From: Gemmatimonadota bacterium
GTDB taxonomy: Bacteria; Gemmatimonadota; Gemmatimonadetes; Palauibacterales; Palauibacteraceae
Reading direction: 5' to 3'
NCBI GenBank assembly: GCA_020351855.1
Contig: CP070670.1
Span: 604,928 to 640,852 of the forward strand
Length of the DNA stretch: 35,925 bases
The position numbers and the translations under genes are program-made. This document shows, in pieces, positions 12,650-15,896 of this stretch. The notes beneath the pieces were generated by a model, which was not told where the DNA came from, did not search any database, and was given only the letters and a program-made list of their open reading frames with translations. Positions within the stretch are counted from its first letter, which is position 1; each line of letters starts with the position of its first letter.

Positions 12650-14674
12650 ATGATCCAAACCGCGACCTCACGTGAGCTCGACGATCTGCTTGCGGGCTGT
12701 CTGCAGGGGCTGGATGAGGAGATCCTTGCCGTACGGGATCAGCTGGCTGCCCGCGGACTGAGCGAGCCGGTCCGCGTTTCGGACGGGCGCGTGGCGGACA
12801 CGGCCGGAGCGATCGTCTACGAGTGGCGGCTTCCGTCCGCGCGTCTCGATGTGCGTCCCAACGACGCCGTGCGCGTGCGCTGCGATGCGGGCGAGGCTGC
12901 AGGCTTCGTGACCGCGGTGAGCCGCGAGACGCTTCGTCTCCGGACGGCCGTATCCGAGTGGCTGGGTGCGGGACCCGGCGTCGCGTCGCTCGAGTTCGAC
13001 CCGACATGGCTCCTCGGCTCCCTCAGGGGGCGCCTCGAGGCGATCCGGGAAGCGCCTTCGCGTCACCATGCGGCCACCATCCTGCGGCTGTTCGGCCGAA
13101 CCATGCCGAAGCTCGGGGTGGCCGAGACGCCGCGCGCCCCGTCCCCGGAGCTGAATCCGGCCCAGCGCGAGGCCCTCCTGCGCCTGCTCGGCAGTGAGGT
13201 GCAGTTCGTCTGGGGACCGCCGGGGACGGGGAAGACGCGGTTGCTCGGACAGGCGGTGGCCGAGCTCGTGCGGGACGGGAAGGTGCTGGTGACGGCGGTC
13301 ACGAACGGGGCCGTCGACGAGGCCGCCGGGCGCGTGGTCGACGCGATCGGGAGGGCTGCCGCCGAGGCCGGCCGGATCGTGCGCGTCGGAGCGGAGCTGA
13401 GCAGGACGGGCGACCCGGGCCTGTCCCTGGAGGCGGCGCTGGAGCGACGCGTCCGCGGGGGCCGGCTCGCCCTGAGCATCCGGGAGATGGAGCGGGAGCT
13501 CGGCATCCGAACGTCGGACAGAGGGAGGGAGCTGTCGCACCGCGCCAGGGCCTACCGCCTGCTCGCCCTGGCCAGGGAGCGGGGAGACCCGGAGATGCTG
13601 GACGACGCCGCCCGGCTTCTGCGGGATCTGCAGCTCAGGGCGATCCTCACGCTTCGGGAGGCCGATGTCGTGCTGACCACACTGGCTCGACTCGCGCTCT
13701 GGGACGAGCTGGTGGCGCTCCGATTCGACTCTCTGGTGATCGATGAGGCGAGCGCGGCGCCCTTGCCCTACCTCGCGCTCGCCGCGGCGAGAACGGCGGG
13801 CCGCACGGTGGCGTTCGGGGACTTCCAGCAGCTGCCTGCCGTCGTGGTTTCCCGCGGAGAGGCGGCCGCCAGGTGGATGAGCCGGGATCTGTTCCGCGAG
13901 GCGGGCGTCGTCGACGACACGTCCGGTCGGATCGGACTCCCGTCCCGGCGGGACCGCCTGTGCGCGATGCTCGATGAACAGTACCGGATGAGTCCGACGA
14001 TCTGCCGCTTGGTGAGCGAGATGTTCTATGGGGGCAGGCTGCGAGATGCCCCCGAGGTGGCGGGGCGTCCGCAGCTCGCCTGCCCGCTGGTCATCGTGGA
14101 CAGCGAGGATCGGCGGCCCACGGTGGAGAGGGCCGAGGGCTCCCGCGCCAACGCAACGCACATCGGGCTGGTCCTGCGTCTCCTGGAGGCGCTTGCCGGG
14201 AGCGGGATCGCGGACGTGGCGGTGGTGACGCCCTACCGCCTTCAGGTGAGGAGGCTCGCGGAGGCGGTGCGGGCGCAGTTGGGCGACGTCGCCCCACGCG
14301 GCCTGGAGATCGCCACCATCCACCGCTTTCAGGGACGAGAGAAGTCGATCGTCGTGTTCGATACGGTGGATGCTCCGCCGGGGAGGAGCTGGTTCCTGCA
14401 TGAGGGTCGGAACCCGGATCTCCCGCGGCTCGTCAACGTGGCCCTCTCGCGCGCCCGCCACGGACTCGTGCTGGTCGGCACCATTGCGGGCCTGCGCCAG
14501 ACCCTGCCTCCCGATGCCCTGATCAACCATCTCGTAGCGCGCGTCGCCGCGCAGGGAGCGGTCGTTCGAGCGGCCGAGCTGGGCGACTCCCTCAGCGCGA
14601 GGTCGCTGTGGGGTCCGGTCTCGCCGGCGGCCCGCCTCGAGCATGGGGACCGTGGCGACGAGCCGATTCCGTGA
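12650..14674 (+). CDS. Superfamily 1B helicase, UPF1/IGHMBP2 (DNA2/NAM7)-like
   Basis: ATP-dependent nucleic-acid helicase of 674 residues. Seen in order: an N-terminal beta-rich region (about 40-110) like the domain that precedes the helicase core in IGHMBP2, LNPAQREALL (168-177), Walker A GPPGTGKT (189-196), Walker B VIDEASAAPL (363-372), motif III GDFQQLPAV (390-398), EQYRMSPTIC (443-452), motif V IATIHRFQGREKSIVVFD, and motif VI LVNVALSRARHGL. A helical insertion (about 265-335) separates motifs Ia and II. No nuclease domain is visible. ATG 12650 begins a sensible protein, whereas the frame is open further upstream without a plausible N-terminus. Whether it acts on RNA or DNA is unknown. 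It ends at the large intergenic RNA region. Confidence 0.9.
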   Translation: MIQTATSRELDDLLAGCLQGLDEEILAVRDQLAARGLSEPVRVSDGRVADTAGAIVYEWRLPSARLDVRPNDAVRVRCDAGEAAGFVTAVSRETLRLRTAVSEWLGAGPGVASLEFDPTWLLGSLRGRLEAIREAPSRHHAATILRLFGRTMPKLGVAETPRAPSPELNPAQREALLRLLGSEVQFVWGPPGTGKTRLLGQAVAELVRDGKVLVTAVTNGAVDEAAGRVVDAIGRAAAEAGRIVRVGAELSRTGDPGLSLEAALERRVRGGRLALSIREMERELGIRTSDRGRELSHRARAYRLLALARERGDPEMLDDAARLLRDLQLRAILTLREADVVLTTLARLALWDELVALRFDSLVIDEASAAPLPYLALAAARTAGRTVAFGDFQQLPAVVVSRGEAAARWMSRDLFREAGVVDDTSGRIGLPSRRDRLCAMLDEQYRMSPTICRLVSEMFYGGRLRDAPEVAGRPQLACPLVIVDSEDRRPTVERAEGSRANATHIGLVLRLLEALAGSGIADVAVVTPYRLQVRRLAEAVRAQLGDVAPRGLEIATIHRFQGREKSIVVFDTVDAPPGRSWFLHEGRNPDLPRLVNVALSRARHGLVLVGTIAGLRQTLPPDALINHLVARVAAQGAVVRAAELGDSLSARSLWGPVSPAARLEHGDRGDEPIP

Positions 14675-14755
14675 GAATGGGCGCCGGAAGTCCGCGACCG
14701 GTGGCCGTTGCCGGATCATGTTTTGCAAAAACTGGAAGATGCCGCCGCTTCAGGG

Positions 14756-14784
14756 TTGACCACAAAAAAATTGTTTTGTATTCT
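14756..14784 (+). promoter_or_regulatory. Strong sigma-70-like promoter for the intergenic RNA
   Basis: TTGACC (14756-14761), a 17-base spacer rich in A and T, and TATTCT (14779-14784). Five of six -35 bases and four of six -10 bases fit the consensus with ideal spacing, and the A/T stretch is striking in this GC-rich DNA. It predicts transcription starting near 14,791. No protein gene begins within 600 bases, so the product is most likely an RNA. Confidence 0.65.
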
Positions 14785-14790
14785 TGGTCC

Positions 14791-15058
14791 GTGCTCGAGG
14801 AGGAAGCACCAGCAAGACCGGAAGCTGCACCCTCTGGCGCATATCGACGGGACGCTTGGCGTGGGGAAGGGAGCAGGTCGAAAGACCGGTGACCGGAAAC
14901 CACACCGCGGGTTGAGCGACGAAGGTGCCAGGCCCGTCGAGTCTTGGAAGGCGAGCGCAGCCGGCCAAGACGCAACAGCCGGAACGGTGAGATCTGTCTG
15001 AAGGCGGGTCGAATCCTCCCTCAGCCCCTGACACTCTTCGGAGTGGGCAGGGGCTGAG
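14791..15058 (+). ncRNA. Candidate structured non-coding RNA, family not recognised
   Basis: About 270 bases directly after a strong promoter, with no plausible protein. Helices seen by eye: GTGCT/AGCAC (14791-14795 with 14805-14809); TCGACGGG/CCCGTCGA (14844-14851 with 14933-14940), continued after a three-base bulge by CTTGGC/GCCAGG (14855-14860 with 14927-14932, one G-U pair), about 14 pairs enclosing 66 bases; GGTC-GAAA-GACC (14876-14887), a GNRA tetraloop; GTGG/CCAC (14861-14864 with 14900-14903); GTCTTGG/CCAAGAC (14941-14947 with 14965-14971) with an inner GGC/GCC; possible 5'-3' closure GGAGGA/TCCTCC (14799-14804 with 15014-15019). It ends in a UUCG-capped hairpin. The conserved cores of RNase P RNA, tmRNA, SRP RNA and 6S RNA are absent. 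Exact ends are inferred, and the function is unknown. Confidence 0.5.
15020..15058 (+). terminator. Very stable UUCG-capped hairpin at the end of the RNA
   Basis: CTCAGCCCCTG (15020-15030) pairs perfectly with CAGGGGCTGAG (15048-15058). Inside it CACTC (15032-15036) pairs with GAGTG (15041-15045) around a cUUCGg tetraloop. In total there are 16 base pairs with one small internal bulge. No U-tract follows, so it could be a 3'-end stabilising or U-less terminator structure rather than a classic intrinsic terminator. Confidence 0.5.
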
Positions 15059-15090
15059 TACATCCGGGAACGGGCCGTCCGCGTGTACTC
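15056..15090 (+). other. Second hairpin, overlapping the first
   Basis: GAGTACA (15056-15062) is the reverse complement of TGTACTC (15084-15090). The GAG at 15056-15058 is also the last three bases of the preceding hairpin, so the two stems compete at their junction. Between 15,091 and 15,217 I see nothing further except a 12-bp palindrome CGGGAGCTCCCG at 15,190-15,201. Confidence 0.3.
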
Positions 15091-15223
15091 CACCCGCATC
15101 ACCGTTGCCGCTCGCTTCCCTGATCGCGTTCTCCGCCTCTTCGCCGGCGAACCAACGCCGATTCCCGCCCGCTCGCCACCGGATGACAGCGGGAGCTCCC
15201 GGCCGCGACATCTGCTGCGGTGC

Positions 15224-15300
15224 TTTTTTAAAAAAATTGCAGTGCTGATGTGGAAGGTATGGGGATAAAAACGCGATTTATTTGGCGCGACGCTAGTTTT
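15224..15300. other. A+T-rich segment with DnaA-box-like nonamers
   Basis: A T6A7 run at 15,224-15,236 opens a stretch unusually rich in A and T for this DNA, including GGATAAAAACGCGATTTATTT. TGGGGATAA (15,260-15,268) matches the DnaA box TGTGGATAA at 8 of 9 positions. Further box-like nonamers follow in the tandem repeat just downstream (TTTTCCACA at 15,326, TGTGGATTG at 15,339 and 15,358). The element could be a duplex-unwinding region or just a promoter region for dtd; no dnaA, dnaN or parA gene is in the window. Confidence 0.35.
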
Positions 15301-15325
15301 GGGAGGCACGGGCGGCCGGAGGATG

Positions 15326-15368
15326 TTTTCCACACGGCTGTGGATTGGACACACGGCTGTGGATTGGA
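15326..15368. repeat. Perfect 19-bp tandem repeat containing inverted TGTGG motifs
   Basis: The unit CACACGGCTGTGGATTGGA occurs at 15,331-15,349 and again, without any change, at 15,350-15,368. Each unit holds an inverted repeat CACA-CGGC-TGTG, and the first copy is extended to TCCACA-CGGC-TGTGGA. The preceding TTTTCCACA is 8 of 9 to a DnaA box. A spacing close to two helical turns and the dyad symmetry suggest protein binding sites on one face of the helix, either DnaA or a dimeric regulator of dtd. Confidence 0.6.
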
Positions 15369-15386
15369 GCGACGGTGAAGTGCGGC

Positions 15387-15414
15387 GCGGCCTCGTGAGG
15401 CCGCTTCTCACGAG
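15387..15414 (+). promoter_or_regulatory. Two mutually exclusive hairpins in the dtd leader
   Basis: GCGGCCTCGTGAGGCCGC (15,387-15,404) folds as an 8-pair stem. CTCGTGAG (15,392-15,399), which makes up the core of that hairpin, is also the exact reverse complement of CTCACGAG (15,407-15,414). Only one stem can form at a time. The pair ends 44 bases before the dtd start, leaving the ribosome site free, so a switch is possible but unproven. Confidence 0.35.
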
Positions 15415-15458
15415 ACGCCGGCGACCGCTCGGGTGCGACCAGGAGGGGAGAGGAGACC

Positions 15459-15896
15459 ATGCGGGTGGTAGCTCAGAGGGTGTCGAGGGCGTCGGTGCGC
15501 GTGGAAGGAGAGACGCTTGGAGAGATCGGCCGTGGTCTCCTCCTGCTGGCGGCGTTCGCGCAGGGCGACGGAACGGCGCAGCTGGAATGGATGGCGCGAC
15601 GCGTGGCGGGCCTCCGAATCTTCCCGGACGACGAGCGGCGCATGAACCGGTCGATACGCCAGGCGGGAGGCGCTTTGCTGGTCATCTCCCAGTTCACGCT
15701 CTACGGTGACACGTCGCGCGGCATGCGTCCGTCTTTCGCCGCGGCGGCGCCCCCGGCCGAGGCCGAGGATCTCTACGACCGGTTTCTGGCCGCCCTGCGG
15801 GCCGAGGGATTGCCTGTCGAGAGCGGGCGGTTCGCCGCGATGATGGATGTCGAGCTGGTGAACGACGGTCCCGTGACCCTGATCCTCGATCGGTAG
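15459..15896 (+). CDS. dtd: D-aminoacyl-tRNA deacylase
   Basis: Cytoplasmic editing enzyme that removes D-amino acids (such as D-tyrosine) and glycine mischarged on tRNA, using the tRNA itself for catalysis. The 145-residue protein is the normal length. It has MRVVAQRVSRASV at the N-terminus, the SQFTLYGDTSRGMRPSF block containing the conserved SQFTL motif, and the Gly-cisPro motif in LVNDGPVTLILDR at the C-terminus. ATG 15459 is preceded by a strong GGAGGGGAGAGGAG site. It is the first protein gene after the large intergenic region, with the tandem repeat and switch-like hairpins in its leader. Confidence 0.96.
   Translation: MRVVAQRVSRASVRVEGETLGEIGRGLLLLAAFAQGDGTAQLEWMARRVAGLRIFPDDERRMNRSIRQAGGALLVISQFTLYGDTSRGMRPSFAAAAPPAEAEDLYDRFLAALRAEGLPVESGRFAAMMDVELVNDGPVTLILDR

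Follow-up and report, generated by a model that had tools for sequence, protein, structure and literature searches.

The window analysed here, a stretch of 35,925 nucleotides, covers positions 604,928 to 640,852 of a single-contig 2.96 Mb Gemmatimonadota genome. Between a gene for an SF1 helicase (AAA_11/AAA_12) and dtd, it carries what is almost certainly a gene for a structured non-coding RNA with a conserved fold. The elements that delimit this gene are:

14725..14740, + strand: upstream promoter element TTTTNNAAAA (TTTTGCAAAA within the window), seen intact or nearly so, at an almost constant distance, in 15 aligned copies
14756..14784, + strand: promoter, TTGACC (14756-14761), a 17-base A-tract/T-tract spacer and TATTCT (14779-14784)
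14790..15064, + strand: structured non-coding RNA gene, copy a, matched over the full model length at 277 bits by a covariance model partly built from copy a itself
15020..15064, + strand: 3' hairpin P7 (UUCG loop here) with the tail UACAUC, the probable transcript end (z = -5.1)

The promoter of the RNA is conserved. A preliminary description of this DNA had proposed the near-consensus promoter TTGACC-17-TATTCT; we find it in place and conserved in 15 of 15 aligned copies. It is the single sigma-70-like match in 14680-15460, where 0.1 would be expected. All 15 copies share the same order: TTTTNNAAAA or a near variant, a gap of about 20-28 bases, TTGAC or TTGCA, a spacer in which A- and T-tracts abound (less so in genome G006), and a -10-like box. 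The distance from the promoter to the conserved CGUGC start of the RNA is also nearly constant among them. The element at 14725..14740 is a possible UP element or activator site. The full arrangement of TTTTNNAAAA plus promoter occurs once in the genome, at copy a; the promoter of a second copy (copy b, below) departs from the exact full pattern. Sequence conservation begins at C14790, which fits the start near 14,791 suggested earlier, and its last base is C15064, giving a length of about 275 nt. At the level of sequence, the RNA has both its own promoter and its own 3' end.

The RNA is predicted to fold far more stably than expected by chance. The folding energy of the 275-nt RNA is better than that of 200 out of 200 dinucleotide shuffles (z = -4.2), and fold z-scores lie between -2.8 and -4.3. 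Hairpin P0, hairpin P2, a two-part helix P3, a long arm P4, hairpin P5 and hairpin P7 are common to the aligned copies. The helices of copy a other than P7 are:

14791..14809, + strand: hairpin P0 (GUGCU/AGCAC; GUGCY/RGCAC across copies) with GGAGGA in its loop; 100% of cells paired (alignment A3)
14799..14804, + strand: 5' strand of P1, GGAGGA, whose pairing with UCCUCC at 15014-15019 would make a pseudoknot with P0
14810..14827, + strand: hairpin P2; 98-100% of cells paired, with double-sided changes
14828..14838, + strand: 5' strands of P3, partner 14978-14989; many compensatory versions
14847..14937, + strand: arm P4, formed by 14847-14853/14931-14937 and 14854-14859/14912-14917; 98-100% of cells paired
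14941..14971, + strand: hairpin P5 with a conserved GCGCA apical loop, from comparison of the aligned copies
14978..14989, + strand: 3' strands of P3, partner 14828-14838
14990..15013, + strand: hairpin P6, present in this genus only; 8 pairs, 4 of them with double-sided changes in the genus copies
15014..15019, + strand: 3' strand of P1, UCCUCC, immediately 5' of the 3' hairpin

Compensation is clearest in P3, where the copies show CUGGC/GCCAG, CUGUC/GACAG, CUGAC/GUCAG, AGCG/CGCU and ACCGC/GCGGU. In P4, 6-8 pairs carry double-sided changes; its tip is variable, with a GAAA hairpin, and it contains a conserved bulge that reads GGUGCCA here and GGUACCA in most copies. This bulge and the GCGCA loop of P5 are conserved unpaired motifs. 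At the 5' end, one P0 pair occurs in U-A, U-G and C-G versions, and the GGAGGA/UCCUCC of P1 is replaced by GGAGGC/GCYUCY in Palauibacter-type copies (A-U to C-G). From these few varying pairs, a 5' pseudoknot of P0 and P1 is probable rather than proven. RNAalifold also proposed a pairing of the 5' GUGC with a GUAC in the 3' tail, which finds no support; the tail changes are uncompensated in two copies.

Most of the helices drawn by eye in the preliminary description hold up, including the GAAA tetraloop stem and the 7-pair stem at 14,941-14,971, which is P5. The exception is its bulged long-range helix. The outer part of that helix is conserved and corresponds to the outer part of P4, but its inner CUUGGC/GCCAGG pairing is not. 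This inner pairing occurs in the minimum-energy fold of this single sequence and is impossible in relatives, in which the strand 14854-14859 pairs with 14912-14917 instead.

Compensatory changes are abundant across the copies. In a plain MAFFT alignment, which was not fitted to the structure (the named structure was, however, drawn with this alignment in view), 92.4% of cells are paired, compared with 85.3% when shuffled and 36-49% when slid, and 0 of 500 shuffles are as high. The same alignment has 83 cells with double-sided change (31 when shuffled) and a covariation score of 0.324 (0.203 when shuffled; 0 of 500 as high). Supplied with no structure, RNAalifold recovered P2, P4 and P7 from 29 copies, with 15 of 34 pairs changed on both sides. 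A model-fitted alignment of five genera shows double-sided change in 29 of 59 pairs (shuffled 14.7; 0 of 500 as high), and a hand-fitted alignment of 18 copies is 95.8% paired with double-sided change in 39 of 65 pairs (shuffled mean 26, maximum 34); fitting to the structure biases both of these alignments in its favour. The conservation and compensation in relatives for which the preliminary description had called are thus both present, and they attest to a conserved fold.

The 3' end of the RNA is marked by a strong hairpin. The terminal UUCG hairpin noted earlier is found at 15020-15058, with a folding energy of -31.2 kcal/mol. Its loop is not strictly UUCG, since GCAA and UCUU loops occur in other copies, and sequence conservation ends at ACAUC just past P7. 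A U-tract after P7 is absent in most other copies; in the G006 copy (locus L055), P7 is followed by UUUUUC, the tail of a classical terminator, which suggests that P7 is the transcript end. The dtd start lies 395 bases downstream of the RNA, in agreement with the approximately 400 bases given before. Two further features lie in this interval. At 15202-15240, a terminator-like stem is followed by TTTTTTAAAAAAA, and this may be another stop for the RNA transcript or else belong to a dtd promoter. At 15333-15370, there is a tandem short direct repeat, CACACGGCTGTGGATTGGA.

The RNA matches no listed family. The region 14,600-15,300 was scanned against all Rfam families, raiA included, and none matched, whether at gathering or at relaxed thresholds. 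RNaseP-T gave a chance match of 11.8 bits over 35 bases (gathering threshold 60), and a relaxed Rfam scan of 12 homologous loci returned one chance microRNA-type match, outside the RNA. The failure of the preliminary description to recognise RNase P RNA, tmRNA, SRP RNA or 6S RNA here is therefore borne out, as none of their models matches. The genome encodes genuine RNase P RNA, SRP RNA and tmRNA at other sites. 6S RNA was detected neither in this genome nor in the order, and the RNA itself has no RF00013 match and a multibranched consensus, not a long rod with one large central bubble. A role as a CsrA sponge was also rejected, because CsrA (PF02599) was found neither in this genome nor in 18 family genomes. 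None of the reading frames stays open throughout the homologs, in keeping with the earlier view that the stretch codes for no plausible protein. Among the open-access papers searched, no structured RNA of this kind has been reported for Gemmatimonadota. Separately, the genome contains two RNase P RNA matches (G000:C1:2431464-2431771, L032, and 2089386-2089777, L031). One is full (268.6 bits); the other is about 89% identical, covers model positions 20-303 of 367 at 190.4 bits and, from its sequence, looks like a duplicated, 3'-truncated gene.

Homologs of the RNA are widespread within one bacterial family. By DNA search, this genome was found to contain a second copy, 70% identical, and 26 of 60 genomes gave matches. 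With a covariance model (R1) built from 14 copies, the RNA was then recognised in 27 of 35 genomes from a single Gemmatimonadota family, to which Ca. Palauibacter and Ca. Benthicola belong. By genus, it occurs in 6 of 6 genomes of g1, the genus of this genome (two copies each), 1 of 2 of g2, 1 of 2 of g4, 4 of 6 of g5 and 15 of 17 of g6, and in neither the one g3 nor the one g7 genome. Palauibacter, the type genus of the order Palauibacterales, has been found in marine sediment, in sponges and in saline soil (PMC10469786). The RNA is not a universal housekeeping RNA, since it is missing in 8 of the 35 family genomes, several of which are incomplete.

No credible copy was found outside the family in a class-wide scan (394 genomes), a phylum-wide scan (395 genomes, an overlapping set) or a less strictly filtered scan of 30 chosen genomes; the filtering of the class and phylum scans was strict enough that very distant homologs could escape. 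The three strongest of the weak matches were inspected and rejected: one is a plain UUCG terminator in a genome outside the family (G373), one lies inside a stretch that by eye resembles a GMP synthetase gene (G039), and one lacks all hallmark motifs (G055). A pattern search with the 3' hairpin, among named genomes, matched Gemmatimonadota assemblies only, again including Ca. Palauibacter and Ca. Benthicola. Viral contigs gave no match to this pattern, and viral carriage was set aside. Inheritance from a family ancestor followed by several losses would be the simplest reading.

The position of copy a is shared across genera, as it lies between the helicase gene and dtd in g1, g2, g4, g5 and g6. 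This site is empty in some relatives. In G007, G011 and G012, the aligned ends of the helicase gene and dtd are 112, 23 and 99 bases apart, respectively, without the RNA between them, and no copy of the RNA was found elsewhere in these genomes. The RNA is dispensable, given the empty site in at least three relatives, and since some relatives with nearly complete genomes lack it, it cannot be essential in the family. Its presence also varies within genera, since G012, which lacks it, shares a genus with G006, which carries it. G024 (L136) and G032 (L135) also lack the RNA although their genus otherwise carries it. The helicase-dtd region of G024 stands out as A+T-rich, which may point to genome reduction.

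All six genomes of g1 carry two diverged copies, a and b. Copy b has an M1 peptidase gene on one side and, on the other, a gene that belongs to no consistent family (loci L002/L033 and L041); in G004, this second gene has a weak Prok-JAB match. In a tree of the RNAs, the genus copies a and b group together (support 0.93). This grouping indicates that the duplication occurred within the genus lineage, before the six genomes split. The two diverged copies may have split roles.

We considered whether the RNA could instead be a cis-acting leader of dtd, that is, a riboswitch or attenuator that senses a ligand and whose 3' hairpin gates transcription into dtd. Copy a does precede dtd, in the same orientation, in all five genera that share its position, and the RNA ends in a terminator-like hairpin. 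However, the gap from the RNA to dtd ranges from about 300 to 690 bases among relatives, copy b adjoins the M1 peptidase gene and an unrelated gene, no alternative antiterminator pairing could be seen by eye, and relatives without the RNA still have dtd near the helicase gene. The RNA is thus not always directly upstream of one regulated gene, and the gap and the neighbours of copy b make a dtd leader implausible; we regard it as unlikely. The same observations, with the conserved promoter and the terminator-like hairpin, argue for a stand-alone gene, as the preliminary description had favoured. Less probable still is that one of the known housekeeping RNAs (6S, RNase P, SRP or tmRNA) lies here in highly diverged form. 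A strong promoter, the size, the stable fold and the lack of detectable 6S RNA in the genome or order would all suit it, but the other three RNAs are encoded elsewhere, the multibranched fold lacks the single rod and central bubble of 6S RNA, and several relatives have neither this RNA nor a detectable 6S RNA. A chance fold or a protein-coding stretch in a G+C-rich intergenic region can be practically dismissed: G+C-rich DNA folds readily and unconserved reading frames overlap the region, yet the z-scores, the abundant double-sided changes and the want of any frame open across homologs all speak against it.

A more serious alternative, which we hold possible though clearly not the leading one, is a trans-acting small RNA that works mainly by base pairing with mRNAs, seeded by either the GCGCA loop or the GGUACCA bulge. 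Both motifs are unpaired and conserved, and the RNA has its own promoter and a terminator-like end. Seed-pairing RNAs usually need less structural constraint, whereas here the whole scaffold is strongly constrained. The conserved unpaired sites on a conserved scaffold instead suggest a trans-acting, protein-bound RNA. Taken alone, and by analogy with known RNAs, this mechanism is an even bet; for the RNA gene, its fold and the trans-acting, protein-bound mechanism jointly, we put the probability at roughly 0.55.

Under this protein-bound reading, the conserved promoter, at its nearly fixed spacing, would produce a discrete transcript of about 275 nt. The transcript would fold into a P2/P3/P4/P5 core, with a probable 5' pseudoknot and a strong terminator-like 3' hairpin. 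Bound by protein, it may then act in trans, either as a regulator or as a scaffold, with its GGUACCA bulge and GCGCA loop displayed to a partner that would be a protein or another RNA. Such an RNA would be useful yet dispensable, and its duplication in one genus would have yielded two diverged copies whose roles are possibly split.

Comparison with known systems places this RNA within a familiar general kind. Like 6S RNA (RF00013), it is non-coding, has its own promoter and is present in two copies in some genomes, and some bacteria carry two 6S RNAs; unlike 6S RNA, it is multibranched and pseudoknotted, has no rod with a central bubble and is not matched by the 6S model. It resembles RNase P RNA (RF00010) in being multibranched with its 5' and 3' parts joined by long-range pairing, but it does not match that model, and the genuine RNase P RNA is encoded at another site. 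GGA motifs in loops recall the protein-sequestering RNAs of the CsrB/RsmZ type, although CsrA was not found in the genomes searched and the GGAGGA loop is probably paired in P1. A further parallel is raiA/ModT, likewise a stand-alone structured RNA of a few hundred bases that is conserved in fold and inherited within lineages, and for which the action in trans that we infer here has been shown (PMC11706538). ModT, however, is known from Bacillota and Actinomycetota (PMC11706538), while the new RNA is known from one Gemmatimonadota family only and matches none of the Rfam families, either in sequence or by model.

The absence of an Rfam match and the compensatory changes support the earlier proposal of a new stand-alone structured RNA. 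It defines a previously unlisted family within a general kind of RNA that is already known, and in the genomes tested it is restricted to a single bacterial family. A bolder reading, that of a new pseudoknotted, protein-bound class with an abundant, housekeeping-like role, arisen in one Gemmatimonadota family, with two specialised copies in one genus and a mechanism unlike that of 6S, raiA or any known RNA, seems doubtful to us. For an Rfam entry, the boundaries, the alignment and the consensus fold are already available. The two-copy genus and the relatives with an empty site offer a natural comparison for finding the role of the RNA. The RNA joins a small set of large, structured bacterial RNAs that lack an assigned function, and through it their role can be tested in a new lineage.
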